Source: Methanolinea mesophila (lineage in GTDB: Archaea; Halobacteriota; Methanomicrobia; Methanomicrobiales; Methanospirillaceae). From it: 64,000 nucleotides of DNA. Below are positions 7,649-45,597 of this stretch, in pieces; the first letter of the stretch is position 1; each line of letters begins with the position of its first letter. The notes below the pieces were generated by a model. That model searched no databases, was not told the origin of the DNA, and saw only the letters and a list, made by a program, of their open reading frames with translations. Where the stretch lies: assembly GCF_017873855.1 (NCBI RefSeq), contig NZ_JAGGKR010000001.1:1617529-1681528 (forward strand), given 5' to 3'. A program made the position numbers and the translations under genes.

Positions 7649-8866
7649 TCAGTGTAAGATCATGATAGTGAACTTGGCGATGTCTTGCTGTATCTCCTCG
7701 GTTACCCTGAGGTAGCTGTAATCCCCAATGAGATCGCTCCAATCTGACATGTCCGGGCCTAACTGCGTAGTCAGATTCAGGTAATACTCACCACCCGTCC
7801 CCGTGAGATGGTACGACTGGAGGGTTGAATTGATAACAAAGGGGGAATCGGTTCCGGGGAGATCCTGCCCGGAATCTGCATGGATGATGGAACCGTTCGT
7901 GATCCCGTTCAAGGAGGAAACATTCCCCTGGCCGTCATACGTGAGGTTGGTCCATGTCCAGTATGACCCGCCCCGGTCGGAAACACCCGTGGCAATCTTC
8001 CCGCCTGTCCCGTCAAGGGTGACATTCTGCCAGGCGGCCGCCCCGGTGTCCCCCGTATCGGAGGGAAGGAACGCGAGAAGGTTGCAGATCGTGCCCGCCG
8101 CCGCCTCCTGGTCGAAGTAGAGGCTGCCGTTGTGTACTTCGGACCATGCAGACGCGGAATCTCCTTCCGCATCGGTCCCCGTTGCGGATGCATAGCCGTT
8201 GTTGACGACGAGGCTTCCGAAATCACCGTCCTGCCGGGCATACGCCCCGCTGCCGAACACCACATCAGTTCCGGTCACGGTGATGAACCCGGTTCCCGCC
8301 CGGCCGGTCTGGTTGAAGTCGAACGGGCCGTCGGTTGCGGCTTCCACGATCGCCCGGTCTCCCCTGGCCGACATCCCCACGCTGGCCGAGGAGAGAGAGC
8401 TCCCGAACGTGCTTCCATTCGCGTGCTGTGACGCGTATACTCCATCGAAACCGGGAACCAGGCCGAGCAGCACGACTTCGGTGCCCAGGGTCCCTGCTTC
8501 CTGTTCAACGCTGGCGGAACCCCCTGATACCAGCGTCGCAGTCCAGGCCTTGTCCCCGGACGGGCCGATCACCGAGCAGCCGGCAAACGCCTCCCCCGCT
8601 TCCGCTTCCAGGGACAGGTCCTGTGATACGACGGGCTCGGTGAAGATCGGTCCCGGTTCCAGATTCAGGGTTCCCTGAGAGACGGGAGTGATCGTCCCTC
8701 CCGAGACCGCCGCAAGGGACAGTCCTTTCGTGCCGTCATCTCCCACCACGAGCGTCCCGGAATACTGGCCGCTCCCGGTGGCTCCCTCGAACGTAAAGGT
8801 CGCGGCACTCGCCGCGGCGACGATCAGGGCCAAAACGAGAAATCCCGCTATATATATCGGTTTCAT
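7649..8866 (-). CDS. Secreted family B protein (Ala/Gly/Ser-rich beta pattern), pair 1
   Basis: A 405-residue exported protein, signal peptide to about residue 21 (A-A-A-S-A-A). The mature N-terminus has the block F-E-G-A-T-G-S-G-Q-Y-S-G-T-L-V-V-G-D-D-G shared with the proteins at 10013-12514 and 43442-44662, then G-C-S-V-I-G-P-S-G-D. The rest is a long run of short Gly/Ala/Ser/Asp-rich beta segments, suggestive of a beta-solenoid. No anchor or enzyme motif is seen. ATG 8866 overlaps the TGA of the upstream family A gene by ATGA, so the two are translated together. I do not recognise the family; a role in an extracellular or cell-surface structure is inference. Confidence 0.85.
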   Translation of the reverse strand: MKPIYIAGFLVLALIVAAASAATFTFEGATGSGQYSGTLVVGDDGTKGLSLAAVSGGTITPVSQGTLNLEPGPIFTEPVVSQDLSLEAEAGEAFAGCSVIGPSGDKAWTATLVSGGSASVEQEAGTLGTEVVLLGLVPGFDGVYASQHANGSTFGSSLSSASVGMSARGDRAIVEAATDGPFDFNQTGRAGTGFITVTGTDVVFGSGAYARQDGDFGSLVVNNGYASATGTDAEGDSASAWSEVHNGSLYFDQEAAAGTICNLLAFLPSDTGDTGAAAWQNVTLDGTGGKIATGVSDRGGSYWTWTNLTYDGQGNVSSLNGITNGSIIHADSGQDLPGTDSPFVINSTLQSYHLTGTGGEYYLNLTTQLGPDMSDWSDLIGDYSYLRVTEEIQQDIAKFTIMILH

Positions 8867-9795
8867 GATATTCTCCGGATTCCGGACTGATAGGAGAGCA
8901 CCTTCGAGAACGCAGTGATCTCCCCGGATACCGTGGTCGTCTCGCTGTACTGGACGTCCTCGCCCTTTCCGATCAGGTATGCGTCCACGTCACCGAAGGG
9001 CTCGAAGTTAAAGGTCCCAAGGGTGGTGGTCGTCCCTTCCTGCAGGTGGGCGCCGATGAATGCCGAAGCGGACCCCGAAGCCGGGATGTCGCCGAACCCG
9101 GTCACTGTTATGGAGTAATCGGCGGCAACCGGTACATCGGCCGATGCCGCAACGTTTCGCTCCGACGCGGTCGTGGCAAGAGACATGAGGGTCATGTCCA
9201 CATCGCCGCCCATTTCAACAATGTTGCAGAACTCCGGGGTGATGCCGGTCGATGCGGCGGCAAAAGGACAGATGAACAAATCGTCGGTGATCCCGATCGA
9301 TCCCGCTCCGTCAACCACCATGTCTTCCGAGGAGACCGCCCTTCCGGTGTCAAATCCTACGAACTCCAGGACTTTCGAGGTCTCGAGGTTTCTCGTCCCC
9401 ACGACCTGGTTCGCGGTGTCGAGGGCCGAAGACTTGACATAGCCGATAAGGCCCTGGTCCGCAACGGTATTTTCAGAATATGCTATGGAATACTGTACCT
9501 CACCGGGCGTATCGGTAAGGATATCATCAAAAACGGGCAGTTCGGGGACCAGTACGGCCCCACCGTCCGTGGAGACCAGTACGCTTCCGGCAGGACTCAG
9601 GAGTGCATCGAGGACCAGGTTCGAGATCTGCCAGGTCATGGAATCGGATTCCGTCGCGGTGCCGAGCACCGTCATGGTTGTTGCCGAAGAGAACCCCTGC
9701 GTCTCGGGGACCGCAGGAGGCGGGATGTCTGCACATGCGAGCGGGAATAGGAACAGCAGTGCGATCACTATCGTTATTTGAATACGCGGTTTCAC
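8863..9795 (-). CDS. Secreted family A protein (PETQGF motif), pair 1
   Basis: 310 residues, GTG start at 9795 with GGTGG six bases before it. The signal peptide ends near residue 22 (L-A-C-A). Landmarks shared by all family A members follow: PETQGF at 30-35, G-T-A-T-E-x-D-S at about 45-52, Y-S-E-N-T-V-A-D-Q-G-L near 106-116, F-D-T-G-R-A-V-S-S-E near 148-157, C-P-F-A with Cys 176 and E-F-C-N-I-V with Cys 190, G-F-G-D-I-P-A-S-G-S-A-S-A-F at 233-246, and Y-S-E-T-T-T-V-S-G-E-I near 283-293, ending I-R-R. The two Cys are conserved and likely disulfide-bonded. There is no anchor. It is the first gene of a two-gene unit with 7649-8866. Function unknown; the family is not one I can name. Confidence 0.88.
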   Translation of the reverse strand: MKPRIQITIVIALLFLFPLACADIPPPAVPETQGFSSATTMTVLGTATESDSMTWQISNLVLDALLSPAGSVLVSTDGGAVLVPELPVFDDILTDTPGEVQYSIAYSENTVADQGLIGYVKSSALDTANQVVGTRNLETSKVLEFVGFDTGRAVSSEDMVVDGAGSIGITDDLFICPFAAASTGITPEFCNIVEMGGDVDMTLMSLATTASERNVAASADVPVAADYSITVTGFGDIPASGSASAFIGAHLQEGTTTTLGTFNFEPFGDVDAYLIGKGEDVQYSETTTVSGEITAFSKVLSYQSGIRRIS

Positions 9796-9810
9796 TGGTT
9801 ACCACCGTTT

Positions 9811-9822
9811 CACTGAGCAGTG
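9811..9822. promoter_or_regulatory. Inverted repeat near probable transcript start of pair 1
   Basis: CACTG at 9811-9815 and CAGTG at 9818-9822 form a perfect short inverted repeat 16 bases before the GTG start of the A gene. A TATA-like CTTTATG on the minus strand is at 9852-9858, about 33 bases further upstream. Confidence 0.45.
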
Positions 9823-10012
9823 TCAGTTGATGGTGCTGGAACCGGTGCCGGCATAAAGATTCCTCTTACGGGCCTCCGGGTCGATGGCGGTTCAGCGTTA
9901 TCGGTCGTGAAAAGGGATACTACTGCACGATCTTTTCGGATCCGGGTACCGGCCGGACTTAGGGGACACGTATGAAAATCGGGAGAATTAAAAAAAAACG
10001 AGGGGGATCGGG

Positions 10013-12514
10013 TTAATGGTTCCCGACCTTCGCGTCAAAGTCGCCGAGCCCGGTATAGGCATAGGCGTAGTGAAGATTCACTTTCCCGGTCTTCGAATCG
10101 ATGTCCGATCCCAGTCCTTCGAGGTTTGCATATGCAGTCATGTTGTAGTTGTTCAGCGTGCCGTTACGGCCGAACTCGTACAACCCGGCCCCGGTGCCGG
10201 AGATGGAATCGTCCCCGATCACAGGGATGAGGTACGGCGAGTTCACGGTACCTGCACCTGCCGCAGACGCGGAGGCGATGTACCCGATCTTGTTCTTGTT
10301 CGTGTTGCTGAACGTGACGTTCACCAGGGATTCGTCACCTATTGCATTCGAACTCTTCGCGAGGACCTGCCCGTCGGAACCGGTTACGTTACTTACCTGG
10401 AGGGCAAGTGCAGCGGTCACGTTCCCGGGCTCTCCCGCATCGACCTCACCGGCCAGTGCGAGCTGGGCGAACTCCAGAGTGCCGTTCTCTGACGATGAGA
10501 GCACGAATCCGCGGTCTCGCTGGGAATCGACCCCGAATGCGAGGGCAACGGATTCCTGGGGACCTGGTGCGGTCTTCTCGAAGGTGCCGATCTGGCCGGC
10601 AAGTGCGCCGTTGACCAGGAAGTCATCCGAGTGTTCACACCCGGTATCGACATTCACACCGCCGGCGACCCCTACCTGGGCAAGCCTCCCGGTCGAGTTC
10701 CCGGAAGAGGCCGCGACCACGAGGGCGGCGTCATGTCCGGCTGAGAATGCACCCGTAACTGATTCGATCTCTCCGCCAGCGGTCTCTCCCTCTACTGCCT
10801 GGAAGCCGAACGCACCCGAACCTTCCGCATGCGGGTCATCGCCGGAGCTTCCCAGCATGTCCGCATCGAGGTCGACGTCGGCATTTCCAGCACCCACGAT
10901 CTGGAGGAAGGAGAGCGAGCCGTTCTCCACGCGTGAATCGGTGAAGACCCTGTTGTCGTTCGAGTCCGATGCCCTGCCGGACACCATCCCGTTCCCGGCG
11001 ACACTGTTCCAGAACTCTCCACCCTGGCCGGCGAGGGCCGCGTCAACTCCCACGCTGGAGTCACCATGGCTCGCCGATACGGTGCCCGCAAGGGCTCCCT
11101 GGCCATAATTGAAGAAGTTCCCGTTTGTCCGGAGCCTTACCTCAGCGTCGTTCCCTTCTGCCGAGGAAGCCTCCGTCACTGATGAAATCGAACCGGTAAC
11201 ATCTCCCTCCAGATACTGGATGCCGAAGGCACCGGAGCCTGATGCCTGGGGACTGGAACCGGCCGCTTCAAGGAGGCCGGCGTCGAAATCCACGCCGGTG
11301 TTTCCGGCTCCGACGACCTGGACGAAGAAGAGGGAGCCGCTCTCCATTCTGGTTTCGGTGAAGGCCCAGTTCCCGTCCGAGTCCGATGCCTTGCCAGATA
11401 CTATCCCTCGTTCATCGGTCCCTAAATCTCCTCCCTGGCCTGCGAGGGCACAGTCGAGTCCTACATCCGCCGGTCCGAGATCTGCCGAAGCAGAGCCCGC
11501 GAGCGCAGCCTGAATGTATTCGAAGGAACCGTCAGTGCGTACTCTTACGGCTGCACCGTTGCCCCCTGCAGATTCTGAGATCGTGCTGGACGAAACCTGC
11601 GAAGCGGCGAATCCGTCGATATCCTGCACGGCGAAGGCGCCCAAAGCGTTTCCTCCAAGCGCATCTTCCACGGGCCCGCCTGCGAGCAGGTCGACTGCCA
11701 CATCAAGGGTGCCTGCACCGACGACCTGGTCAAAGAAGAGAAAACCGTCCACTACATCAGTGCGGGTCGCTGCGGTGCTGCCCTGTGCATCCACGGCGGT
11801 CCCGGATATGCGTACGTTACCTGTGCCGTCAGATCCGAGGGTCCCGGTTCCCTGGATGTCGCTTCCCGACACCCCGCTCTGGCCTGCGATTGCACCGTTC
11901 ACTCCCACGGAGACGGGGTCAAATGCGACCGAAGCGCTCCCGGCCGCAGCACCCTGGATAAGGTCCAGCATGCCGGTGGTATTCACGTCCACCGAAGCAC
12001 TGTCTCCCTTCAGGGAAGTCGCTGCGCTGGCCGAATGCACGAATCCTACGGGGGCCGGACTCGACAGAGCACCGAAGCCTCCCGTCGAGACCTCCTGGCC
12101 GGCGTATACGCCGGTGAGGTCGAGCATCCATATCGAACCGTCGAAGGTCCCGGCTTCCTGGCTGATCGTCGCCGCTGTTCCGGCCAGGTCGGTCGCAGTC
12201 CAGGCCTGGTCGCCCGAAGCGCCGATGACCGAACAGCCTACGAACCCTTCGCCGCCTGTGGCGTCAACGGTCCATTCCTGTGATACCATAGGGTCGTTCT
12301 CGGGCTCTACGGCGGTAGTGGAATATTCGGGTTCTTTCATCGTCCCGCCGGAAACACCTGCGAGGGACAATGCCTTCGAGCCGTCGTCCCCGACGACCAG
12401 CGTCCCCGAGTACTGCCCGTTTGAAGTCGTGCCTTCAAAATTGAAGGTCTGTGCGCCCGCCGCCCCGACCAACAGGGCGACAAGCAGGACTCCGGCAAGA
12501 TACGTCAGTTTCAT
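10013..12514 (-). CDS. Large secreted family B protein with tandem repeats, pair 2
   Basis: 833 residues, signal peptide to about residue 21 (A-G-A-Q). The N-terminal block F-E-G-T-T-S-N-G-Q-Y-S-G-T-L-V-V-G-D-D-G and G-C-S-V-I-G-A-S-G-D tie it to the other two B proteins. The middle holds at least three tandem units of about 145 residues, each with E-(N/S)-G-S-L-x-F-x-Q-(I/V)-V-G-A-G-N, G-S-G-A-F-G and A-L-A-G-Q-G-G; variation between units makes them an old duplication rather than a recent one. Composition is very rich in Gly, Ala, Ser and Asp and poor in Lys, as expected of a long secreted beta structure. ATG 12514 overlaps the stop of the family A gene by ATGA. It is twice the length of its paralogues, the extra length being repeats. 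Role unknown. Confidence 0.88.
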   Translation of the reverse strand: MKLTYLAGVLLVALLVGAAGAQTFNFEGTTSNGQYSGTLVVGDDGSKALSLAGVSGGTMKEPEYSTTAVEPENDPMVSQEWTVDATGGEGFVGCSVIGASGDQAWTATDLAGTAATISQEAGTFDGSIWMLDLTGVYAGQEVSTGGFGALSSPAPVGFVHSASAATSLKGDSASVDVNTTGMLDLIQGAAAGSASVAFDPVSVGVNGAIAGQSGVSGSDIQGTGTLGSDGTGNVRISGTAVDAQGSTAATRTDVVDGFLFFDQVVGAGTLDVAVDLLAGGPVEDALGGNALGAFAVQDIDGFAASQVSSSTISESAGGNGAAVRVRTDGSFEYIQAALAGSASADLGPADVGLDCALAGQGGDLGTDERGIVSGKASDSDGNWAFTETRMESGSLFFVQVVGAGNTGVDFDAGLLEAAGSSPQASGSGAFGIQYLEGDVTGSISSVTEASSAEGNDAEVRLRTNGNFFNYGQGALAGTVSASHGDSSVGVDAALAGQGGEFWNSVAGNGMVSGRASDSNDNRVFTDSRVENGSLSFLQIVGAGNADVDLDADMLGSSGDDPHAEGSGAFGFQAVEGETAGGEIESVTGAFSAGHDAALVVAASSGNSTGRLAQVGVAGGVNVDTGCEHSDDFLVNGALAGQIGTFEKTAPGPQESVALAFGVDSQRDRGFVLSSSENGTLEFAQLALAGEVDAGEPGNVTAALALQVSNVTGSDGQVLAKSSNAIGDESLVNVTFSNTNKNKIGYIASASAAGAGTVNSPYLIPVIGDDSISGTGAGLYEFGRNGTLNNYNMTAYANLEGLGSDIDSKTGKVNLHYAYAYTGLGDFDAKVGNH

Positions 12515-13449
12515 GCCGTTCTCCGTATTCCGGACTGGTAGGAGAGCACCTTCGAGAATGCGGTGATCTCCCCGGATACCGTGGTCATCTCGCTGTACTG
12601 GACGTCCTCACCCTTGTCGGTCAGGTATGCATCCACGGCACCGAAGGGCTCGAAGTTAAAGGTCCCCAGGTACGTGGAGGATCCTTCCTGAAGGTGGGCG
12701 TCGATGAACGCTGAAGCGGACCCCGATGCCGGTACATCCCCGAACCCGGTCACCGCGATCACATAGTCCGCGGCAACAGGAACATCGGCCGATGCCGCTA
12801 CATTGCGCTCAGATGCGCCCGTAGCGAGCGACATTATGGTCATGTCCACAGTGCTGCCCATCTCCACGATATTGCAGAATTCGGGAGTGATGCCGGTCGA
12901 CGCGGCGGCAAACGGACAGATGAACAGGTCGTCGGTGATCCCGATCGATCCCGCCCCGTCAACCACCATGTCTTCCGAGGAGACCGCCCTTCCGGTATCT
13001 AACCCTACGAATTCCAGGACTTTCGAGGTCTCGAGGTTTCTCGTCCCCACTACCTGGTTCGCGGTGTCAAGGTCCGACGACTTGGCATAGGACACGAGGC
13101 CCTGGTCCGCAAGGGTATTTTCCGAGTATGCAACGGTATACTGCACCTCTCCCGGCGTATCGCCGAGGATATCGTCAAAGACAGGAAGGTCCGGGACCAG
13201 CACGGCCCCGCCGTCAGTGGATATCAGTGCGCCCCCGGCGGCACTCAAAGTTCCGTCAAGGTTCAGGTTCGAGATCTGCCATGTCATGGAATCAATTTCC
13301 GTGGCCGTCCCGAGGACCTGCATGGTAGTCATTGAAGAAAATCCCTGGGTTTCCGGAACAGCCGCGGGCGGGACATCCGCACAGACCGCCGGACACAGGA
13401 TGAGCAGCGCAATGGCTGCCGCTAAAAGAAAAAATGGCTTATAGGTCAA
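12511..13449 (-). CDS. Secreted family A protein (PETQGF motif), pair 2
   Basis: 312 residues, TTG start at 13449 supported by GGGAGG seven bases upstream. The protein is very close to the A protein of pair 1 over its whole length (same PETQGF, D-Q-G-L, C-P-F-A-A-A-S-T-G-I-T-P-E-F-C-N-I-V and Y-S-E-M-T-T-V-S-G-E-I blocks, ending I-R-R-T-A). This and the nearly equal arrangement of the two units show that pairs 1 and 2 arose by duplication of the whole two-gene unit, after which the B partners diverged in length. Signal peptide ends near residue 24 (A-V-C-A). The promoter lies in the 190 bases shared with the divergent superoxide reductase gene. Confidence 0.88.
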   Translation of the reverse strand: MTYKPFFLLAAAIALLILCPAVCADVPPAAVPETQGFSSMTTMQVLGTATEIDSMTWQISNLNLDGTLSAAGGALISTDGGAVLVPDLPVFDDILGDTPGEVQYTVAYSENTLADQGLVSYAKSSDLDTANQVVGTRNLETSKVLEFVGLDTGRAVSSEDMVVDGAGSIGITDDLFICPFAAASTGITPEFCNIVEMGSTVDMTIMSLATGASERNVAASADVPVAADYVIAVTGFGDVPASGSASAFIDAHLQEGSSTYLGTFNFEPFGAVDAYLTDKGEDVQYSEMTTVSGEITAFSKVLSYQSGIRRTA

Positions 13450-13465
13450 TATGTATCCTCCCTAC

Positions 13466-13482: not shown

Positions 13483-13546
13483 AGTAATTAGCTTACTTCA
13501 GTAGTGGATAAAGGTTCTGATTTCGATTAGGGACAAGATACGCAGG

Positions 13547-14994: not shown

Positions 14995-15759
14995 TTATAC
15001 CGTCAGGCGGGATATGCCCGACTCGTAGCCGATGTTCTTGTCGAACACCCAGATCAGACCGCTGGCGGTCGAAGACTGGGAGAACACGATATCCGTGGCT
15101 TTATCGGTGGTGTTTCCCCGGCCCTCCTCGATATGGCCGTTCGTGTACGCCCCTGCCGAACCCACCGCAGGCCCGCTCCCGAGACCGGTGAGGCTCACGT
15201 CGTAGTTAAGAGCCACCGGGACATCAGCAGTGGGGGTCACGGTCCGTGACTGCGCCCGGGTCGCGAGCGACCCCTGGGAAAGGTCGAAGGAGCTCCCTGC
15301 GTTGACCGTGTTGTGGAATGCAGGTATCACTGTATTTTCCAGGAACGGGTTCACGCTCACGGATGACGCGTTCCTCGGCATTCCCATGGTATCGATCCCG
15401 ATGTTCTCGGTCGATACCGCCCGTCCGGTACCGTTCCCGTCCCCGATCCCGTCGAACGAAAAGATCCTGGTCGAGTCCACGTTATACTGGCCCCGGGGTT
15501 TGTTCGCGGTATCGAGGGTAAATACCTTGTAGTACCCCGAAGTGCCACCGGTCGCGTGGGTGGATTCCCCGTACGTGCTCGTCGACTGGGCCTCTCCAGG
15601 CACCAGCACGCCATCGATCGCGTCTGAAGAGATCGTCCAGACCAGCGAGCTCGTCTCCGAGATGTCTCCGGTGGCGACAGTCGCCGCAGCGGCAAACCCT
15701 CCCGCGGAGAGGACCATCGCGAGTGCGATGGAAATTATGAAAATGCTGCTTTTTCTCAT
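14995..15759 (-). CDS. Secreted protein distantly related to family A
   Basis: 254 residues from ATG 15759, which is preferred over the longer frame because a full signal peptide (M-R-K-S-S-I-F-I-I-S-I-A, cut near A-A-A) starts there and AAGGAAAGAG lies upstream. It lacks PETQGF and the conserved Cys pair but shares the architecture of family A: T-G-R-A-V-S-T-E-N, L-T-G-L-G-S-G-P-A-V-G-S-A-G-A-Y, G-H-I-E-E-G-R, and the C-terminal F-S-Q-S-S-T-A-S-G-L-I-W-V-F-D-K and Y-E-S-G-I-S-R. I read it as a diverged member. There is no family B gene next to it. Function unknown. Confidence 0.75.
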   Translation of the reverse strand: MRKSSIFIISIALAMVLSAGGFAAAATVATGDISETSSLVWTISSDAIDGVLVPGEAQSTSTYGESTHATGGTSGYYKVFTLDTANKPRGQYNVDSTRIFSFDGIGDGNGTGRAVSTENIGIDTMGMPRNASSVSVNPFLENTVIPAFHNTVNAGSSFDLSQGSLATRAQSRTVTPTADVPVALNYDVSLTGLGSGPAVGSAGAYTNGHIEEGRGNTTDKATDIVFSQSSTASGLIWVFDKNIGYESGISRLTV

Positions 15760-16242
15760 GGTATAATGCTCTTTCCTTACTGTACCGGGACATTCCGGCA
15801 CCTGTACTCCCGGTTGACTCCCTGAAAATATCAACACGATTGTAGTGGCAATAGCTTCAATTCTATTGGAAGTTATGGATCCCCCGGAAGATATGATCCG
15901 CCGGGCGCGGCATGTCCGCGTGATAGCACCCCGGACCGATCATCAGTTCCAGGGAGTGGAATAACTACGATGTCGGGAGTATCGAAGAAGTCTGATGTAA
16001 CCGAAATGACGTTCCGGGTGATCTGCCTGGCAGTTGCTCACCCCGGCAGGGCCTGCCGGCTTCGACCGTCCGGGTTCTTCTTATCGGTTGATCGCGAGCG
16101 ATGTCCGCCAGGGTTAAACTAATGCGGAGGCTATCGCGCCGCGGTTGGCCCGAAGTGGCGGGTACAACGCCCGGGGAACATCACGAGGCAAGGATGCCGG
16201 CAAAGCCGGAAAAAAGTTAAAATCGGATCCGGGAGGCTTCAG
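15760..16242. other. Intergenic, promoter of the A-like gene
   Basis: About 480 bases. Near 15824-15830 a minus-strand TATTTTC may be the TATA box of the A-like gene, and CCGG-6-CCGG at 15785-15798 a weak inverted repeat after it. The remainder is GC-rich with no protein-like frame. Confidence 0.45.
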
Positions 16243-26770: not shown

Positions 26771-26935
26771 CCGGGATTTGTATGCCTCAATTATGCTCGC
26801 GGGTATATAAGTTGCTCTATGAAATCCGTCGGAATAAATTGCCTGATATACTTCGGATCCTATGGAGTGCCGGGGGCCGCAGGGCGGAAAGTGCCGGACA
26901 GGATATTCCCACAAAATTCCGGTGATACGGAGTTT

Positions 26936-30842: not shown

Positions 30843-31751
30843 TTATGTCGGGGGCGTAAATACGCCCGGGGAGGTAATCTTTGAGTTATAGTTCATTACC
30901 TTCTGGAAGAGGGTAATATCTCCGCTTGCGGTTGTAGTCTCGGAGTAGACCAGATCTTCCGCTTTGGGATACAAGGGCTCAATGCCCGGCCCCGGCTCGC
31001 CATAGAGCGACCTCCCTTCCTGAACATGTACATCGATGTAGGCCTCGGCGCTGCCCATAGCAGGAACATCACCGAACCCGGTTAATTTTATGGAATAATC
31101 GGACTCGACACCGGGATCTGAGACCGGTACATCAATGGCCGTGTCACTTGCCGACTTTTTCATGATGTACCGCTGATCGCTCGTGGTGGCGAGTGAACCG
31201 AGTGTCAGGTCGACGCTGCTCCCTTCCTGAACGATATTGCAGAATCCCGCATTGAATTGCCCCTGCCCTGCTGCAAAGGGACAGATCATGATTGACTGGG
31301 TCAGGAATGAGGTTGCCGCGCCGTCAATGACGCTGTTCTCATCGGAAGTCATCCGGCCGGTATCGGTCCCGACGAACTCCACGACTTTGTCGGTGTGCAC
31401 ATTGAACAGGTTCTCGGTTGCCATGCCGGAGGTATCAGTGCTCATACCCTTTGTGTACGTGACAAGTCCCTGATCGGCGATGGTGTTCTCGGTATATGTG
31501 CCGACATATTCCGTTTGATCTATGTAAAGAGTGGTCAGTGGAGCGGGTATCGGCAAGTTCAATGCGAGGCTTCCCACGATATTTACCACACTATCTGTCT
31601 CGGTCACCGTGCCGAGTGCGGAAATCGCCGTGGAAGTCGAAAATCCCTGGGTCTCGGGGACCTGAGGGACTCCGGTATCGGCCATCGCACCAAAGGTACA
31701 GAGTACGAGTGCGATTGCCGTGAGTAGAATAATTTTTTTAATGGTAAACAT
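30843..31751 (-). CDS. Secreted family A protein, tandem cluster copy 2
   Basis: 302 residues counted from ATG 31751. All family landmarks are present: D-T-G-V-P-Q-V-P-E-T-Q-G-F after the signal, Y-T-E-N-T-I-A-D-Q-G-L, C-P-F-A ... F-C-N-I-V-Q-E-G-S, G-F-G-D-V-P-A-M-G-S-A-E-A-Y-I-D-V-H-V-Q-E-G-R, Y-S-E-T-T-T-A-S-G-D-I. The ATG lies only one base after the G-rich ribosome site (GGGGG), too close for normal use, whereas the in-frame ATT at 31742 lies 10 bases after it and starts a perfect signal (I-K-K-I-I-L-L-T-A-I-A). The two neighbours show the same layout but no usable ATG, so ATT may be the real start here too. Confidence 0.87.
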   Translation of the reverse strand: MFTIKKIILLTAIALVLCTFGAMADTGVPQVPETQGFSTSTAISALGTVTETDSVVNIVGSLALNLPIPAPLTTLYIDQTEYVGTYTENTIADQGLVTYTKGMSTDTSGMATENLFNVHTDKVVEFVGTDTGRMTSDENSVIDGAATSFLTQSIMICPFAAGQGQFNAGFCNIVQEGSSVDLTLGSLATTSDQRYIMKKSASDTAIDVPVSDPGVESDYSIKLTGFGDVPAMGSAEAYIDVHVQEGRSLYGEPGPGIEPLYPKAEDLVYSETTTASGDITLFQKVMNYNSKITSPGVFTPPT

Positions 31752-32237: not shown

Positions 32238-33134
32238 TTAAGCTCCAGTCGGAATGATCGATGTTCCCGTCCCTGTAATCTTTGAGTTGTAGCTCATTAC
32301 TTTCTGGAACAGGCTGATATCCCCGCTGGCGGTAGTGGTCTCGGAGTATACCAGGTCTTCGGCCTTGGGGTCATGAATTCCTGGTACCGGGAATGACAGG
32401 TGGATCCGGCCTTCCTGGGCATGGACATCGATGGAAGCCTCTGCACTTCCCATGGCAGGGATATCCCCAAATCCGGTGAGCTTGATGCTGTAATCAGACT
32501 CGACACCCGGGTCCGAGACCGGCAGATCGGGATCACCGTCTCCACTCGCCTTTTTCATGATATAGCGCTGCTGTGTCCCGGTGGTGAGCGAACCGAGGGT
32601 CAGGTCGACACTGCTCCCTTCCTGAACGATATTGCAGAATGCCGGGTTAACATTGTTAGTTCCCGATGCAAACGGGCATATCAGGATCTCCGAATCAAGG
32701 AATGATATACCGGCGCCGTCAAGGACCGTGTTCTCGTCCGAGGTCATGCGTCCGGTATCGCTGCCGATGAACTCGACTACTTTGTCAGTCTCCACATTGA
32801 ACAGGTTGGGGGTTGGCACTCCGGCCGTATCAGTGGTCATTGATTTTGCATAGGTGACCAGGCCCTGGTCTGCGATCGTGCTTTCGGTATACGTGCTGGT
32901 GTATTCGGCGTGATCTCTGACCAGGAGCCCCAGCGGATAAGGCAGGGTCTCATGGCCGCAGTTCGCGATAATGTTCACGACGCTGTCGGTCTCGGTGACC
33001 GTCCCGATCGCTGACATAGTCGTTGAGGTCGAGAATCCCTGGGTTTCGGGGACCTGAGGGACTCCGGTATCGGCCATCGCGAGCCCGGTACAGAGTACGA
33101 GCGCGATAGCAGTCAGTAGAACAAATCTCTTAAT
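32238..33134 (-). CDS. Secreted family A protein, tandem cluster copy 3, non-AUG start
   Basis: 298 residues if begun at ATT 33134. The nearest usable canonical codon is ATG 33077, which would remove the whole signal peptide. Reading on in frame upstream gives I-K-R-F-V-L-L-T-A-I-A-L-V-L-C-T-G-L-A-M-A, a complete signal matching copy 2. Compared with copy 2, one C (plus strand) is missing, which destroys the ATG: GGTAAA-ATTCCCCC against GGTAAAC-ATTCCCCC. GGGGG lies nine bases before the ATT. The mature protein is intact (PETQGF, D-Q-G-L, C-P-F-A ... F-C-N-I-V, G-F-G-D-I-P-A-M-G-S-A, Y-S-E-T-T-T-A-S-G-D-I). Either initiation is at AUU, or the gene has lost export. Confidence 0.8.
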   Translation of the reverse strand: MKRFVLLTAIALVLCTGLAMADTGVPQVPETQGFSTSTTMSAIGTVTETDSVVNIIANCGHETLPYPLGLLVRDHAEYTSTYTESTIADQGLVTYAKSMTTDTAGVPTPNLFNVETDKVVEFIGSDTGRMTSDENTVLDGAGISFLDSEILICPFASGTNNVNPAFCNIVQEGSSVDLTLGSLTTGTQQRYIMKKASGDGDPDLPVSDPGVESDYSIKLTGFGDIPAMGSAEASIDVHAQEGRIHLSFPVPGIHDPKAEDLVYSETTTASGDISLFQKVMSYNSKITGTGTSIIPTGA

Positions 33135-33243: not shown

Positions 33244-34113
33244 TTAAATGAATATCCGGTACCCGGGACCGGTGATCTTTGAATTATAGTTCATCACTTT
33301 CTGGAAGAGGGTGATGTCGCCGCTTGCGGTCGTGGTCTCCGAGTATACCAGGTCTTCTGCTTTATCAAAACCTAACCGGGATTCCTGGGCATGCACCTCG
33401 ATAGAGGCTTCCGCACTCCCCATCGCAGGGATGTCACCGAAGCCGGTAAGCTTGATCGAATAATCTGACTCGACTCCCGGATCTGAAACCGGATATTGAT
33501 AATCAGGGTTCATGACCGAAGGACCGGCGTTTTCCATGATATATCGCTGAGCAGTCTCCGTGGTGAGCGAGCCGAGGGTGAGATCAACACCGGATCCTTC
33601 CTGAACAATGTTGCAGAACGGCGGATTTATATTAATACCCGGGCTGGCGAAGGGGCAAATAAGTATATTGCTATCACCGAACATCGTTCCGGCTCCGTCG
33701 AGAACAGTGTTTTCATCCGAGACCATTCTGCCGGTGTCGGTCCCGATAAACTCGACTACTTTGCTGGTCTGCACATTGAACAGATTTGTCGTCGCCATCC
33801 CGGACGTATCGGTGCTCATACCCTTTGTGTAAGTGATAAGACCCTGGTCTGCGATGGTCTCTTCAGTGTAGGTGCTGGTGTACTCTGATTGTTCCCCAAC
33901 CGCACCCATAGGGAATGGAAGGGTGGGTCCTCCATGATTGGCAATGATATTTACAATATTGTCAGTTTCGGTCACCGTCCCCAGAACGGACATCGCAGTG
34001 GCCGTGGTAAACCCCTGGGTCTCAGGGACCTGGGGGCAGCCGGTATCTGCCATTGCATATCCCGTGCCAAGCACGAAGACAAGAGTCATCAAGAGAATGA
34101 GATTTTTACGGAT
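33244..34113 (-). CDS. Secreted family A protein, tandem cluster copy 4, non-AUG start
   Basis: 289 residues if begun at ATC 34113, nine bases after GGAGG. The signal then reads I-R-K-N-L-I-L-L-M-T-L-V-F-V-L-G-T-G-Y-A-M-A, equal in length and charge to the other copies. An ATG three codons further up exists in the DNA but is out of frame by one missing base and meets a stop after ten codons. The canonical choice, TTG 34092, gives an uncharged 15-residue leader. The mature part has all family blocks (C-P-Q-V-P-E-T-Q-G-F, Y-T-E-E-T-I-A-D-Q-G-L, C-P-F-A-S-P-G ... F-C-N-I-V, G-F-G-D-I-P-A-M-G-S-A). Confidence 0.8.
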   Translation of the reverse strand: MRKNLILLMTLVFVLGTGYAMADTGCPQVPETQGFTTATAMSVLGTVTETDNIVNIIANHGGPTLPFPMGAVGEQSEYTSTYTEETIADQGLITYTKGMSTDTSGMATTNLFNVQTSKVVEFIGTDTGRMVSDENTVLDGAGTMFGDSNILICPFASPGININPPFCNIVQEGSGVDLTLGSLTTETAQRYIMENAGPSVMNPDYQYPVSDPGVESDYSIKLTGFGDIPAMGSAEASIEVHAQESRLGFDKAEDLVYSETTTASGDITLFQKVMNYNSKITGPGYRIFI

Positions 34114-35949: not shown

Positions 35950-38900
35950 TTGGCTGACCCTGAAGGGCGGGAATACGCGGGAGAGCGGTTCGGCGTGCTC
36001 ACCGACAGGGGCCGGCCGGTCTTCGGGATCACCGGCCGGATCTGGGAGGCGCTGATACTTCTCAGCGTCGTGATCACCCTCGCGGTCACCCTTTACTCCC
36101 TCTCTCTCGGCGTGACCACGGTGTTCGCCCAGCTCTACTATATCCCCATCGTCCTCCTCGCGTTTTATTACCGGAGAACCGGGGTGTTCCTGTCGGTGCT
36201 CCTGAGCCTCGTGTATCTCGCGCTTACGGCGCTCTTCATGCCCGGAAACATAGTGGAGATCTGGGGGGCAGGTATACGGGTATTTTTTTTCATCGTGGTC
36301 GCGGTCCTCGTCGCACTGCTCTCCGAACAACTGTCCCGGAGCAGGGACGAACTGCGGGATGTCGCCGATCTCCTGGAGAGCAGCATGATGAACGCACAGG
36401 TATGGCTCACCGTGCTCGGCGCGAACGGGACGGTCCTCCTGTGGAACAAGGCGGCGGAGCGCATCAGCGGGTACCCTGCGACAGACGTGGTCGGGAAGAA
36501 CGATATCTGGAAGAAACTCTACCCGGACCCGGAGTACAGGCGGGTGATGACCTCGAATATTACCCGAATTATCGGGGAGAAGGACTTCCTTTCCAATCTG
36601 GAGGCCACCATCGTATGCAGGGACGGAGAGAAAAAGACCATCTCCTGGAATACCCGCATGCTCCCTGTTCATGGTGAAGCGAGGTTCATCGTCATCGGGG
36701 TCGATATCACCGAGCAGAAACGGGCGGAATCCATCTCTTCCGAGTATATTCTCTATCTTGAGGATCTGGAAAAAATTGAGGAGATCATCCGCAAAGAGGC
36801 AGATCCAGACCGGATGATAACGCGGGTCCTCGACCTCGCACGGGAAATCCTCGAGAGCGACCGGGCCTGGCTTCTCTACCCGGGAGACCCGGAGGCCGGC
36901 TCGTTCCGTGTCCCGATGATCCGGTCCCGGGAAGAGTGGGCATTAGACTTCTCTCCCGACGCGGAGATCGCGGTCACCCCCGATGTTGCGGACGCGTTCA
37001 GGGACGCGCTTAGGACCGAGGGCCCGGTGATATTCGACCCCACGAGCGCCCGGGCAGTTCCTCTCGGAGACCGGTTCTCCATCAGGTCCCAGATCATCAT
37101 GGCGCTCCATCCCCGGAGAGGGAAGGCATGGATCTTCGGGCTGCATCACTGTACCCACCCCCATGCCTGGACCAACAAGGAACAGCGTTTGTTCACCGAG
37201 ATCGGCAGAAGGCTCGCCGACGGGCTCTCTTCCATGCTCCTTCTTTCGGAACTGCGGGAGAGCGAGAAGAAGTATCGTACCGTCTTTGAGACGACCGGTA
37301 CCGCGATGGTGGTGCTTGAGGGCGACACCACTATCAGCCTGGCGAACAGCGAGTTCGTCCGATTGAGCGGGTTTCCCCGCGAGGCGCTGGAGGGAAAGAA
37401 ACACTGGACCGAGTTTGTCCTGCCCGAAGATCTGGACAGGATGAAAAACCAGCATATGCTCCGCAGGGAGAACCCGGAACAGGCCCTCAGGCAGTATGAA
37501 TTCCGGTTTTTAAGGGGGAACGGTGAGGTCAGGGATATTCTCCTCACTGTCGACATCATCCCGGGCACGAGGAAGAGCGTCGCGTCGCTCCTCGATATTA
37601 CCGCGAGAAAAGAGGAGGAGAGGGCGCTTAAACAGGCCTACGACGACATCAGCGAACTCGACTTCATCGTCCGGAACAGCCCTGCAGTCGCCTTCCTGTG
37701 GAGGGCGGTCGAAGGATGGCCGGTGGAGTACGTATCCGCCAATATAGAATATTTCGGATACTCACCCGATGACTTTACTTCCGGCCGGATCCCCTATTCG
37801 ACCATTATTCTTCCCGAAGACCTCTCCCGGGTGACCTCTGAGATCGGCCGGTACAGCGCCGAACCAGGACGAACCCATTTCACCCAGGAATACCGGATCC
37901 TTACCTCCGGAAGGGAGATCAGGTGGGTGGAGGACTGGACCTGGATACGGAGGGACGACAAGGGGACGATCACTCATTACCAGGGAATAATTTCCGATAT
38001 CACCACCCGGAAAGAAGCCGAAGCGGCATTAAAAACGAGCGAAGAAAACTACCGCGACCTGGTGGAGAACATCAACGATATCATCATCTCGCTCGACACC
38101 CGGGGAGTCGTCACCTACATCAGCCCGGTGGTGAAGCAGGTGACCGGGTATACACCCGAAGAGATCGTCGGGCACCCGTATGTCGAGTTCGTGTATCCCG
38201 GAGATATTCCGGCGATAAACGAGGCGTTCCGGGAGACTCTGGCAGGCCACTCAATGCACGTCGAGTTCCGGCTTGTCAGGCCGGACGGTTCCCTGATCTG
38301 GTTTCGGACCAGGAGCCGGATCATCGCCGGTCCCGACGGAACCCCCCAGGGACTCTATGGAGTAGTCTCTGACATAAGTGAGCAGAAGGAGGCAGAAGAA
38401 GCGCGAAAGGCGACAGAAGAGCGCTACCATAACGTCCTCGACACCATGATGGAAGGGTGCCAGATCATCGACTTCGACTGGCGCTACCGGTACGTGAACG
38501 AAGCGGTCGCCCTGCAGGGCAGGCGGACTCGGGAGGAACTGCTCGGTGAGCGGATGATGGATGCGTATCCGGGGATAGAGCATACCGAACTGTTCGAGGT
38601 TCTGAACCACTGCATGAAAGACCGGGTCCAGACGCGGATCGTCAATAAGTTCGTGTATCCCGGCGGGGGGTCGGGCTGGTTCGAACTGAGTATCCAGCCC
38701 GTCCCGGAAGGAATTTTCATCCTTTCCATGGACGTCACGGACCGGAAGAACGCCGAGGATATGCTCGCCGAGAGCGAAAAACGGTTCCGCACCCTCTACG
38801 AGACGATGACGGAAGGGGTGATCTACCAGGACCGTTACGGAAAGGTCCTTTTCGCCAACCCGGCGGCCGAACGAATCCTCGGGCTTTCCATCGACCAGAT

Positions 38901-41226
38901 GCAGGGCAGGAAACCCATGGACCCGCGGTGGCAGGCGGTACGCGAGGACGGGGCCGTCTTCCCCCTGGAGGAGCAGCCGGCGATGCGTACCCTCCGTTCC
39001 GGAGAACCCTCGAAGGAGATGCTGGGGATATTCAACCCTGAACGCGGGCAGTTCAACTGGCTGATGGTCAATTCCGTCCCGCTGATAGAACCCGGAGAGG
39101 AACGACCGTCCGGGGTTTACACCACCTTCGAGGATATCACGGCGCAGCAGAACGCCCGGGAGAGCCTTGCCCACCTGAACCGCGTGCTCATGACCATCCG
39201 CTCGGTCAACCGGCTGATCACGGAGGCATCGGACCGCGATACGCTGATGGACAGGGTAGCGGTGTCACTCGTCCAGGAACGGGGGTATTCCCAGGTATGG
39301 ATCCTGATCCAGGACCCGACCGGCCGGCCCCTCCACCTGAGCAGTGCAGGTATGGAGGAATGCGAGCAGGAGTTCCGGCGTTGGATCGCCGAAGGCCGGT
39401 TCCCCGCATGTGTCGGGGAGGCACGGGACCATTCCGGGGTAGTCCACGTCCTCGAAAACACCCCGGAATGTAACGGGTGCCCGCTCCGGGGGCTGGGGAA
39501 GGACATACTGGTAAGCGGGCTCCGGGCGGAAGGAGTGATATACGGGGTGATCTCGGCGGTGCTCCCCGGTGGGCTCTCGATCGATCCCGAAGAGGAGGAG
39601 ATATTCTCGGAGGTGGCCCATGATCTCGGATTCGCCCTTCACCACCTGGAGGTCTGGGAACGGGAGAGGGCGGCGGTGGCCGCACTCGCCCAGAGCGAGG
39701 AAAACTACCGGAACCTGGTGGAGAACATCGCGGAGGTGATCTATACCGTGGACACCACCGGACTCATCACCTATTTCAGCCCGGCGATACGGGAGATGCT
39801 CGGGTACCTTCCGGAAGAGGTGATCGGCCGGCCGTTCATGGACTACGTCGTGCCGGAAGACCGGGAGGCGCTCGCAAAGGTGTACCAGGAAAGCCTTAAA
39901 GGACGGAATGTCCGTGTGGAATTCCGGGGTTACGATCGGCAGGGGGGTATTCACGTCCTTTCCGCGATGAGCAACGCCGTCTATGAGGACGGGGGGACCA
40001 CGGTAACCGGGCTGACCGGGATCCTCACGGACGTGACCGAGCAGAAGAGGATTGAAACCGAACGCGAGTTACAGAATGCGAGGGTCCGTGCCCTGCTGGA
40101 GATCCACGCCCTCGCGGAAGCCCCGGAGGACGATATACGGAATAGTGCCCTGGAAGGGGGAATCAGGATCACCGGGAGCAGGTTCGGATTCCTCGGTCTG
40201 GTCAGCGAGGACGAGTCCGTGCTCTCCATTCACGCCTGGTCGAAGGGGACCATGCCCAAATGTGCCGTATCACGGGTGCCGCTCCACTATCCTGTCGCAA
40301 CGGCCGGGATATGGGCCGAATGCATCCGGAGCAGGAGGGCGATCGTGGTGAACGACTATCCCGCCTACGAGGGAAAAAAAGGATATCCCGAGGGCCATGT
40401 GCCCATACTCCGCTTCATGGCGGTGCCGGTATTCGAAGGGAATCGCATAAGGACGGTGGTCGCGGTCGCGAACAAGGAGGGGCCGTACACCGAAGAGGAC
40501 GTGGGGGCGCTCACCACGCTCGGGAACACGTTCTGGGAACTGATCCAGCGGAGGAGTGCCGAACAGGACCTCCGCACCCGCCAGCACCAGCTCGTGGAGG
40601 CCCAGTCGCTCGCCCACGTGGGGAGCCTCGAGTATAACATCCCTGAGGGTACCCTGGTGTGGTCGGACGAGCTCTCGAAGATCGTGGGGATCACGCCCGA
40701 ACAGGTGCCGGCAAGCCCCGAGGAGTTCATCAGGTTTATCGTCCCCGAGGACCGGGAGAGGGTACGGGCGGCAATGGAGGAGGTAATCCGTGACGGTGGG
40801 GAGCGGGACCTTGAACACGGGATCATCCGTCAGGATGGCTCCATAAAAATTGTGCACTTCCGTATCAGGACGATCACGGACGGGCAGGGTAACCCGGTGA
40901 GGGTGATCGGCACCAGCCAGGATATCACCGAGCAGAAGGAGGCCGAGGAGCGGATCGCGTCCGCCATCGCCCAGATCGCGAGGAACCTGGAACAGATGGC
41001 AATTCTGAACGACTCCATCAGGAACCCGCTCTCGGTGATCGTGGGACTCGCCGATATGGGCGGGGGCCGGACGAACGAAAAGATCATCCGGGCGGCGAAA
41101 GAGATCGACGATATCATCACCGAACTGGACCGGGGCTGGATAGAATCCGACAAGGTCAGACGGTTTCTCCAGCTCCACCACCACCTGTATGGTGAAGCGG
41201 AGCGGGAAGAGCAGGAGAAGCAGTAA
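35950..41226 (+). CDS. Giant membrane PAS/GAF sensor without ATPase domain
   Basis: 1758 residues from TTG 35950, with GAGGTG shortly upstream; the nearby ATG is out of frame. Four membrane helices (about 30-120) are followed by, in order, PAS (135-255), GAF (275-435), PAS (435-555), PAS (565-690), PAS (700-815), PAS (825-935), PAS (945-1060), GAF (1080-1233), PAS (1250-1365), GAF (1377-1533), PAS (1550-1660) and a C-terminal helical segment with L-N-D-S-I-R-N-P-L. That segment is the dimer/H-box region of a histidine kinase with Asp in place of His, and no ATP-binding domain follows. The second GAF has a Cys set (F-P-A-C and E-C-N-G-C-P-L) that might bind metal. It probably integrates many signals and acts on a separate kinase or regulator. 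Adjacent PAS copies are divergent. Confidence 0.88.
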   Translation: MADPEGREYAGERFGVLTDRGRPVFGITGRIWEALILLSVVITLAVTLYSLSLGVTTVFAQLYYIPIVLLAFYYRRTGVFLSVLLSLVYLALTALFMPGNIVEIWGAGIRVFFFIVVAVLVALLSEQLSRSRDELRDVADLLESSMMNAQVWLTVLGANGTVLLWNKAAERISGYPATDVVGKNDIWKKLYPDPEYRRVMTSNITRIIGEKDFLSNLEATIVCRDGEKKTISWNTRMLPVHGEARFIVIGVDITEQKRAESISSEYILYLEDLEKIEEIIRKEADPDRMITRVLDLAREILESDRAWLLYPGDPEAGSFRVPMIRSREEWALDFSPDAEIAVTPDVADAFRDALRTEGPVIFDPTSARAVPLGDRFSIRSQIIMALHPRRGKAWIFGLHHCTHPHAWTNKEQRLFTEIGRRLADGLSSMLLLSELRESEKKYRTVFETTGTAMVVLEGDTTISLANSEFVRLSGFPREALEGKKHWTEFVLPEDLDRMKNQHMLRRENPEQALRQYEFRFLRGNGEVRDILLTVDIIPGTRKSVASLLDITARKEEERALKQAYDDISELDFIVRNSPAVAFLWRAVEGWPVEYVSANIEYFGYSPDDFTSGRIPYSTIILPEDLSRVTSEIGRYSAEPGRTHFTQEYRILTSGREIRWVEDWTWIRRDDKGTITHYQGIISDITTRKEAEAALKTSEENYRDLVENINDIIISLDTRGVVTYISPVVKQVTGYTPEEIVGHPYVEFVYPGDIPAINEAFRETLAGHSMHVEFRLVRPDGSLIWFRTRSRIIAGPDGTPQGLYGVVSDISEQKEAEEARKATEERYHNVLDTMMEGCQIIDFDWRYRYVNEAVALQGRRTREELLGERMMDAYPGIEHTELFEVLNHCMKDRVQTRIVNKFVYPGGGSGWFELSIQPVPEGIFILSMDVTDRKNAEDMLAESEKRFRTLYETMTEGVIYQDRYGKVLFANPAAERILGLSIDQMQGRKPMDPRWQAVREDGAVFPLEEQPAMRTLRSGEPSKEMLGIFNPERGQFNWLMVNSVPLIEPGEERPSGVYTTFEDITAQQNARESLAHLNRVLMTIRSVNRLITEASDRDTLMDRVAVSLVQERGYSQVWILIQDPTGRPLHLSSAGMEECEQEFRRWIAEGRFPACVGEARDHSGVVHVLENTPECNGCPLRGLGKDILVSGLRAEGVIYGVISAVLPGGLSIDPEEEEIFSEVAHDLGFALHHLEVWERERAAVAALAQSEENYRNLVENIAEVIYTVDTTGLITYFSPAIREMLGYLPEEVIGRPFMDYVVPEDREALAKVYQESLKGRNVRVEFRGYDRQGGIHVLSAMSNAVYEDGGTTVTGLTGILTDVTEQKRIETERELQNARVRALLEIHALAEAPEDDIRNSALEGGIRITGSRFGFLGLVSEDESVLSIHAWSKGTMPKCAVSRVPLHYPVATAGIWAECIRSRRAIVVNDYPAYEGKKGYPEGHVPILRFMAVPVFEGNRIRTVVAVANKEGPYTEEDVGALTTLGNTFWELIQRRSAEQDLRTRQHQLVEAQSLAHVGSLEYNIPEGTLVWSDELSKIVGITPEQVPASPEEFIRFIVPEDRERVRAAMEEVIRDGGERDLEHGIIRQDGSIKIVHFRIRTITDGQGNPVRVIGTSQDITEQKEAEERIASAIAQIARNLEQMAILNDSIRNPLSVIVGLADMGGGRTNEKIIRAAKEIDDIITELDRGWIESDKVRRFLQLHHHLYGEAEREEQEKQ

Positions 41227-43066: not shown

Positions 43067-43441
43067 ACTAATTTCCGCCACCTCATTTTTCGACCGGCCG
43101 GTACGAAGGTCCTGTGAATCCGGGAGACATTCGGGTATTGACCGATGAACCCGACCCCAAATCCTCACCCCTTGGGACCGGCCCATAACAGCCTGTTTTT
43201 GCTCCTTCCGTCCGGTACGCACGAACCGGGTCGGTAAAAAATGCCGGTGTGGCACGCACGGGCGCATCTTCCCGGGAATTTCTTCTCGCAGAAAGGGTTC
43301 CCCTGTACAGTTCCCGATCTGCCTGTCATTGTACCGATCGGAGGCGCTTCCTGAAAATGTCAGGCTGGATCTCCATGGCCGTGCGAACCTGAATCCCGGG
43401 AGATCACGAGAAAACAGATATGATAACCGGTAAAAAAGTGG
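43067..43441. other. Intergenic, convergent genes
   Basis: About 375 bases between convergent genes. GACCGGCCGGTAC near 43090-43103 is a short palindrome shortly after the PKD stop. No protein-like frame. Confidence 0.45.
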
Positions 43442-44662
43442 TTAGTAATGATGGATCCTGAACACTTTCGCGAAGTTCCAGTCATCATCACTTTTTGCGA
43501 TTGCCAGATAGTCTTTCCGGCAACAGCCATCCCTGCTGTCCGAATCGATCCCTAAGGCATTCCCGGCTTCGGCATAGATACCGAAATCGTCCAGGGTGCT
43601 GTGACGGCACGACGGGTCGATCACGAGACCTGCCTCCGTATCGGTATCGTAATTGTCATTCTCCAGTTCTGCCCAGGATTTCGCCTCCAGCGAACCGGTG
43701 GGGATCCATCCGCCGCAGTGGGGTCCGTTGGTGAAGTTTGCCAGCACCTGTGAATAAATCACTCCGGTGGAATCGGCAGAGAACGACTCTACGGTCCCGG
43801 AGGTCCCTTTCAGGTCCACGCACTGTTCTGCTTCGAGCTCGCTGCCCGAGAAGCCGTTCACTCCCAGTGTTCCTTTTAAGGACCCTTCAATAGTCTTCGC
43901 TTTTGCATGCTGGTCGAACTTCAGGGTCCCGTTGAAGACCTCGGTAGAGACCAGGGAAATGCAGCCGTCCTCATCCATGGCGGTCGCCTCAACGGCGGCC
44001 CAGTCTGCGGAGTCGCATCTGCCACCGATCATACCTTCCTGGTTTGCATACGCGACCGAACCGGAAGACGAGGTGGAAGTCCCGAGTTGACCGGTTTCAA
44101 GGACGCCGCCCCACGACTTTGTGCCGGCATACTGGTCCAGCCATCTGATGGTGCCGCTTGCGTATGCTTCCACCTCGGCCCAGTCACCGTTCGCCGACTC
44201 AGATGCGGTCTCGGCCTGGATCAGGTCTGCCTCGGAGTGACAGATCTCCTGGGATGAGTACACCCCGGAGTCTTTCCCGTAGAACCCGACCTCCTGTTCG
44301 GTGTTCACTACGCCGTTGTACACGTTCACGTAGGTATCCGCATGGTTCCCCTGGGCATCATCGAGGGTGCATGACGCAAATCCCTGGCCGTTCTCGGCAT
44401 CGATGGTATACTGCTGGGAAAGCACGGGTGAACCCGAGGACCCGAGGCTATTCTGCGGGGAGTTTACAGGACCATCGGCGGAAAATGTCCCGCCGACAAC
44501 CCCGACGATGGAGAGTCCGACCTCGCCGTTCTCTCCCATGTAGAGGGTCCCGGCCCATTCACCGTTCTGGTTGCTCCCGTAACAGTCATAGGTCTGCGCA
44601 GAAACCACTCCTGCGAGAAGGAGCATCAGGGTAAGAACGAGTCCCGCGACACACTTCTTCAT
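43442..44662 (-). CDS. Secreted family B protein, Cys-rich, pair 3
   Basis: 406 residues. Signal ends near residue 22 (V-V-S-A). The mature N-terminus Y-D-C-Y-G-S-N-Q-N-G-E-W-A-G-T-L-Y-M-G-E-N-G aligns with the start of the two other B proteins, and V-S-T-E-V-F-N-G-T-L-K-F-D-Q-H-A-K-A matches their N-G-S-L-x-F-x-Q repeats. Unlike them it has ten Cys in the mature chain, among them a C-C pair near the C-terminus, so it is likely cross-linked by disulfides. ATG 44662 overlaps the stop of the A gene by ATGA. Function unknown; secretion and coupling to A are the only firm points. Confidence 0.86.
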   Translation of the reverse strand: MKKCVAGLVLTLMLLLAGVVSAQTYDCYGSNQNGEWAGTLYMGENGEVGLSIVGVVGGTFSADGPVNSPQNSLGSSGSPVLSQQYTIDAENGQGFASCTLDDAQGNHADTYVNVYNGVVNTEQEVGFYGKDSGVYSSQEICHSEADLIQAETASESANGDWAEVEAYASGTIRWLDQYAGTKSWGGVLETGQLGTSTSSSGSVAYANQEGMIGGRCDSADWAAVEATAMDEDGCISLVSTEVFNGTLKFDQHAKAKTIEGSLKGTLGVNGFSGSELEAEQCVDLKGTSGTVESFSADSTGVIYSQVLANFTNGPHCGGWIPTGSLEAKSWAELENDNYDTDTEAGLVIDPSCRHSTLDDFGIYAEAGNALGIDSDSRDGCCRKDYLAIAKSDDDWNFAKVFRIHHY

Positions 44663-45597
44663 ACTCGCCTCACTCCCGACTGGTAGGACATCGCCTTCTG
44701 GAACAGGGTGATCTCGCCGGATGCCGTGGACATTTCACTGTACACCACATCTTCCCCTTTCCCGACGCTGTAGAGGTCAACGGAGTAATCCTCGTCCAGT
44801 ACGTGGATCGGGATCGTCATTACATACGCGGTCCTCCCTTCCTGGAGGTGCGTATCGATGAACGCAGAGGCTGAACCCATCGCCGGGATGTCACCGAACC
44901 CGGTTACCTTGATGTCATAGTCTGCTGCGACCGGAACATCGGAACTCGCGGCGATATGACGTTCGGAACTGTCGGTCACCAGGGACATCAGGGTCATGTC
45001 CACGTCGCTCCCCATCTCTACGATGTTGCAGTACTCCGGGGTCAGGTCGATCTGATCTGCGGCGAAGGGACAGATGAACTGCGATTCCGCCAGGCCGAAC
45101 TCACCTGCTCCGTCTACAACAAGGCTCTCCGAGGAGACGGCCCGCCCTGTGTCAAACCCAACGAACTCAACGATCTTTGAGGTCTGAAGGTTCCTGTTGT
45201 CTACAACCTGGTTTGAGGTATCCAGTCCGGTGTTCTTTGTATATGAAACCAGTCCCTGGTCCGCGACCGTGCTCTCGGAATATGCGACGGCATACTGTAC
45301 TTCACCCAGCACGTTCCCGTCACCGAACAGGGGATCGAGGATGGGTATGTGCACAACTCCGACGTACGGGCCGAAATTCAGGGCATCGACCTGAAGCGGC
45401 GCACCGTCCAGGGCGATGTTCGAAATCTGCAAGGTATATATGTCGTTTTCGGTCGCTGTTCCCGCGACCGCGATTGCAGTACCGGTTACAAACCCCTGAG
45501 TTTCGGGTGTTGCCGGCACGGGAGTGTCAGCGCATACCGCTGCAATCCCGAAGATTAGAACGATAGTTATCACTACTAAGTTAAGGGATCTTCTCAA
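44659..45597 (-). CDS. Secreted family A protein (PETQGF motif), pair 3
   Basis: 312 residues, TTG 45597 preceded by GGAGGGGGA. The signal ends at A-V-C-A (about residue 23), followed by D-T-P-V-P-A-T-P-E-T-Q-G-F. It keeps Y-S-E-S-T-V-A-D-Q-G-L, F-D-T-G-R-A-V-S-S-E, C-P-F-A-A-D ... Y-C-N-I-V-E-M-G, G-F-G-D-I-P-A-M-G-S-A-S-A-F and Y-S-E-M-S-T-A-S-G-E-I, ending G-V-R-R-V. It is closest to the A genes of pairs 1 and 2, and like them is first in an overlapping A-B unit although it lies over 30 kb away. So pairing with B goes along with the A subtype that has the E-M-G ending after the second Cys. Confidence 0.88.
   Translation of the reverse strand: MRRSLNLVVITIVLIFGIAAVCADTPVPATPETQGFVTGTAIAVAGTATENDIYTLQISNIALDGAPLQVDALNFGPYVGVVHIPILDPLFGDGNVLGEVQYAVAYSESTVADQGLVSYTKNTGLDTSNQVVDNRNLQTSKIVEFVGFDTGRAVSSESLVVDGAGEFGLAESQFICPFAADQIDLTPEYCNIVEMGSDVDMTLMSLVTDSSERHIAASSDVPVAADYDIKVTGFGDIPAMGSASAFIDTHLQEGRTAYVMTIPIHVLDEDYSVDLYSVGKGEDVVYSEMSTASGEITLFQKAMSYQSGVRRV

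Follow-up and report, generated by a model that had tools for sequence, protein, structure and literature searches.

The 64,000-nucleotide stretch of Methanolinea mesophila DNA analysed here (the window) carries three pairs of genes, all on the minus strand and exactly where an earlier note on this DNA had placed them, in which a first gene (A) is followed by a second one (B). In the first pair, A1 (8863-9795; 310 aa, GTG start) leads into B1 (7649-8866; 405 aa); in the second, A2 (P0004; 12511-13449; 312 aa, TTG start) leads into a long B2 (P0003; 10013-12514; 833 aa); in the third, A3 (44659-45597; 312 aa, TTG start) leads into a Cys-rich B3 (43442-44662; 406 aa). The stop codon of A and the start codon of B share a 4-nt ATGA overlap in all three cases, as the note had reported, at 8863-8866, 12511-12514 and 44659-44662 respectively (junctions ..ATATCATGAAACC, ..ACGGCATGAAACT and ..CGAGTATGAAGAA). 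The claim that both proteins have a signal peptide and lack an anchor also stands: the sole hydrophobic segment of each A and B is N-terminal (19-residue Kyte-Doolittle maximum of 2.2-2.75, against at most 1.45 elsewhere), and it is from this N-terminal hydrophobicity, 2.3-2.75 in A, that the signal peptides are read. All three A and all three B proteins have a pI of about 4.05. Identity to the first A protein ranges from 59 to 84% (84% between A1 and A2), and the Cys pair and conserved C-terminal blocks noticed earlier are present in all three paired A. Elsewhere in the window, the gene that comes after the first cassette, in the same orientation (5527-7515), encodes a PQQ-repeat-like secreted lipoprotein of 662 aa, and large multi-PAS sensor proteins are encoded at 24248-26914 and 35950-41226, the former with a HisKA match and no ATPase domain listed.

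The earlier note could name neither family; this holds for B, which has no match in any library, but A can now be named. A profile built from the A proteins of this genome only, with no Methanospirillum sequence, matches MspA of M. hungatei JF-1 (Mhun_2271, WP_011449234.1; 377 aa, 40.5 kDa) with E=4.3e-45 and two more M. hungatei SH proteins with E=1.9e-46 and 7.7e-43. The reference locus carries D43, T86, S144, N157, C257, C271 and K363, as in the cryoET paper (PMC10593813), and Cys178 and Cys192 of A2 (12874-12918, minus strand) align with C257 and C271 of MspA. On the strength of this profile match and aligned Cys pair, A is by homology a member of the published archaeal sheath protein family SH/MspA. 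The MspA gene itself (L045:11901-13034) encodes two cysteines, C257 and C271, in the genome sequence; the 2018 paper gives one and the cryoET paper two. Mass spectrometry and cryoET have shown that MspA/SH builds the Methanospirillum sheath (PMC6242892, PMC10593813). Its monomers have an amyloid-like core of two six-stranded beta-sheets joined by beta-arches and stack edge to edge through these arches into rings, which form hoops around the cell; the cysteines are proposed to link the rings in a disulfide network, and a cap domain faces the outside of the sheath (PMC10593813). The confident structural model of A2 (pLDDT 87, pTM 0.81) consists of beta structure throughout; its six elements, each about 26 residues long, would fit six beta-arches. 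The likeness to MspA extends over the signal peptide, a PE(T/N)Q N-terminal block, the Cys pair, the C-terminal block, the all-beta model and the multicopy state. Sequence searches of Pfam, NCBIfam, PHROGs and the PDB, the last set holding no SH sequence, gave no match to A, and its model has no significant fold match in a viral structure set. Among the 61 relatives searched, A was found within its own taxonomic family and in none outside it.

The description of the cassette as present three times is correct for the A-B pairs, but A is not confined to these copies: by profile search, the window contains nine A genes and the 2.66-Mb genome about 26 full-length copies, of which three are followed by B and 23 are not. 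The six unpaired copies of the window, again on the minus strand, comprise a divergent SH paralogue at 14995-15837 and paralogues at 28240-29127, 30843-31751, 32238-33077, 33244-34092 and 56868-57803. The SH genes of this genome are spread over at least 10 places on both contigs, in contrast to the single cluster reported for Methanomicrobiales (PMC11576556). Moreover, B is absent from every Methanospirillum genome searched. Since most A genes here and all searched Methanospirillum genomes do without it, B is dispensable for a sheath. The paired A also differ from MspA, which is described as lying outside any operon (PMC6242892), in having a coupled partner gene.

Other neighbours of SH genes were also encountered. 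In M. hungatei JF-1, 94 nt separate an SH gene (probably Mhun_1947) from a downstream gene for a secreted protein resembling DUF3821 S-layer proteins (L047:8070-11151), an arrangement kept at a second locus (L035). In another genus (g9; L024, L062, L063), a TPR-like lipoprotein of about 450-660 aa is encoded after SH genes and may be a second conserved SH neighbour, and in ANME-1-type genomes a conserved secreted protein of about 225 residues is encoded between or after SH genes (L139:1604-2296, L140:7453-8148, L145:4191-4865).

Within the family, B follows A closely. B occurs in 9 of 108 genomes, distributed over six genera, and A in 53 of 108; all nine B-bearing genomes are among these 53 (P=0.0011). 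The earlier note had considered that A and B might mostly lie apart in other genomes; this was checked and does not hold for B, which adjoins an A gene in all ten cases that the contigs allow to check, a count that leaves out one genome (G010) where the B locus is at a contig edge. The order is A then B in seven of them (gap of -4 to 83; three in this genome and one each in G007, G028, G068 and G069), B then A in two (G029 and G061, gaps of 13 and 15), and the genes are convergent in one (G024). Within the family, the ATGA overlap is seen in this genome only, the other genera having gaps of 13-83 nt or convergent genes. Adjacency that is kept while order and spacing vary is the pattern expected of a functional tie. 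In a tree of 97 A proteins, B-adjacency is clustered, with 4 changes against 9.7 in shuffles; the B-adjacent A are nevertheless distributed over four groups, one of them remote from the others. These few groups are well supported, with one outlier from another genus (G061). One relative (G021, L089:2719-4067) has an A gene almost the same as the B-linked A of G029, but with a transposase-like ORF in the place of B, at a contig edge.

The A proteins next to B differ in structure from most others. Two inserts, of 36-48 and 25-48 residues, are found in 10 of 10 B-adjacent A and in 7 of 87 other A; as these counts, like those of adjacency, span related and non-independent sequences, the Fisher value of 1.5e-9 is overstated. 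In A2, insert 1 covers residues 62-101 (13147-13266, minus strand; position computed from alignment anchors) and insert 2 residues 256-282 (12604-12684, minus strand). Insert 1 sits at the published outward-facing cap site of MspA, where MspA itself has a region of about 120 residues instead of about 40, and the second insert has no counterpart in MspA. The first loop is short (10-22 residues) in 21 of the 23 unpaired A of this genome, the exceptions being L052, where the loops at the two sites are both long, and L057, where the first alone is. Even the outlier G061 conforms: its B-adjacent A has both inserts, whereas its nearest relatives lack them. B is thus tied genetically to one structural subtype of A. 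It could be supposed that B is an independent surface adhesin which shares an operon with A only because both are surface proteins, and genes for S-layer-like proteins and TPR lipoproteins do adjoin SH genes in relatives; however, the adjacency has outlasted changes in gene order, the family yielded no unlinked B, and the presence of B goes with the A subtype, which makes such independence improbable.

B matches nothing in Pfam, NCBIfam, PHROGs or the PDB in sequence and profile searches, weak matches to TIGR03027 and to transhydrogenase being dismissed as chance, and it is by these searches an orphan, unnamed family. Its members are acidic, Lys-poor and Gly/Ala/Ser-rich, with a hydrophobic N-terminus, and range from 405 to 1019 aa. 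The common N-terminal block described earlier is present; the 145-residue repeats are not a general feature, since the imperfect repeat unit is about 50-75 residues family-wide and a super-repeat of about 139 residues is found in B2 only. One relative's B gene contains a recent 240-bp tandem array (94% matched). Gln and small residues are conserved. A Cys occurs at an equivalent place in the three B of this genome (C97, C94 and C98), B3 having many more, and the alignment shows it to be missing from the B of G007 and G028. The B1 model (core pLDDT of about 80-94, pTM 0.75) predicts a run of antiparallel strands of about 9 residues joined by short turns. Foldseek finds nothing significant for it in the PDB; the nearest shapes, single-layer OspA and parts of outer-membrane barrels, reach Z 7-8, too low to speak for kinship. 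OspA-type single-layer beta-sheet proteins share the run of short antiparallel strands but have no sequence relation to B, and kinship with OspA was rejected, since the VIA-align Z of 7.1-7.3 over about 170 residues is below 8, the level of kinship, and may reflect only a common arrangement. Functional amyloids such as curli CsgA and FapC likewise combine small and polar residues with imperfect repeats; B has no profile match in any library used. A relationship between A and B finds no support in sequence, profile comparison aligning the signal peptide only. Single-protein scans revealed no relatives of A or B in viral contigs, although the viral SH-like proteins known from the literature have diverged too far to be picked up by such scans. 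Matches of the B profile in Methanosarcina (G233, G425 and G450, with G385 of the same kind) were discarded as signal-peptide matches to unrelated secreted proteins.

Based on the homology of A and the linkage of B to it, B is probably a dedicated second component of the sheath predicted for this organism. The earlier note had proposed an extracellular structure, a sheath being among its examples, with B as the variable part; this gains from A being an MspA homologue with B beside it, but has to accommodate the 23 of 26 A genes that stand without B. In the scheme that we favour, B would be made in step with its own A through the overlapping start codon, would be exported by the same signal-peptide route and would fold into a run of short antiparallel strands. 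It would then dock on the cap formed by the two inserts of A, and its repeats would extend away from the cell as a coat or adhesin of variable length. We give this docking on the SH cap and outward coat somewhat less than an even chance. B would do in trans what the Ig-extended SH proteins of Methanotrichales and ANME-1 ('sheath adhesins') are thought to do in cis, namely provide a variable surface extension on an SH base (PMC11576556); the difference is that the proposed extension is here a separate polypeptide with other repeats. No Ig domains have been reported in the SH proteins of Methanomicrobiales (PMC11576556).

The main rival to an outward coat is that B co-polymerises in the ring itself, as a nucleator, hoop terminator, plug part or ring-to-ring linker within the beta-sheet or disulfide network. 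B is indeed predicted to consist entirely of antiparallel strands and conserves Gln and small residues, the equivalent Cys of each B here, and the additional ones of B3, could join the inter-ring disulfide network (PMC10593813), and a linker would need a fixed ratio to A, which suits the coupling. However, it is not obvious how strands of about 9 residues would stack edge to edge in one sheet with A elements of about 26, the equivalent Cys is lost in the B of G007 and G028, and B length varies from 405 to 1019 aa within the family; we regard a place in the ring as unlikely. Coupled translation and a 1:1 gene ratio would also suit a chaperone, and the assembly of the amyloid-like SH needs spatial control (PMC10593813), so that B might be an export partner which prevents premature polymerisation of its A monomer and afterwards passes into the medium. 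Yet most A genes do without B, and a widely varying repeat number, with a recent 240-bp tandem expansion in one gene, is more usual for surface-exposed parts; we consider that there is little chance of B being such a partner.

Relatives of B extend beyond this family. The B profile matches proteins in 7 of 50 genomes of another family, which we take to be that of Methanothrix (including M. thermoacetophila PT and M. harundinacea 6Ac), and in one genome of an ANME-1-type family, a label inferred from SH gene content and published distribution. These B-like proteins score 32-143 bits, whereas shuffling at equal composition leaves no score above 6.6 bits, and the reverse test gives the same outcome; composition thus does not explain the matches. 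Directly downstream of the B-like gene lies a gene for a secreted protein of about 300 residues (family X, for instance L173:10342-11241) in nine pairs from five Methanothrix genomes, with an ATGA overlap at two junctions and a zero-base gap at four. An X homologue lies 16 nt downstream of the ANME-1-type B-like gene as well, but no X adjoins several of the B-like genes in Methanothrix. X is found in 50 of 50 Methanotrichaceae genomes, with 1-14 matches each, in agreement with the published distribution of SH proteins, which every member of Methanotrichales has, mostly as several copies (PMC11576556). In a genome taken as M. thermoacetophila, a distant X relative (E=1.3e-4) is one of three clustered genes for secreted proteins, some 11 kb away from an S-layer gene. 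Based on this distribution and on the position of the distant relative, X is probably the Methanothrix sheath protein. An hhalign comparison of X with the SH profiles of Methanomicrobiales or ANME-1 finds no relation, and a direct SH search of two genomes (G350 and G374) gave marginal matches only; the SH proteins of Methanotrichales were reported as recognised by structure (PMC11576556), so that the missing profile match of X weighs neither for nor against its membership.

The 2024 survey of SH proteins described no conserved genomic context and no further protein associated with the sheath (PMC11576556), and we found no earlier description of B in the open-licence literature. A is a known family, while the coupled A-B cassette is new and B is an unnamed family. 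We tentatively propose, at somewhat less confidence than the outward coat, that the sheaths of two orders, those of Methanomicrobiales and of Methanothrix, are two-component structures, B being made in translational step with the matching sheath subunit and displayed on the sheath. If this is true, each genome could build several alternative sheath surfaces from its cassettes. In B there is a concrete candidate for a sheath partner, whose predicted docking site belongs to a defined SH subtype, and through it the search for accessory sheath proteins becomes open to direct proteomic tests. B could also account for the way in which methanogens with a sheath alter their surface, be it within syntrophic aggregates or against viruses.
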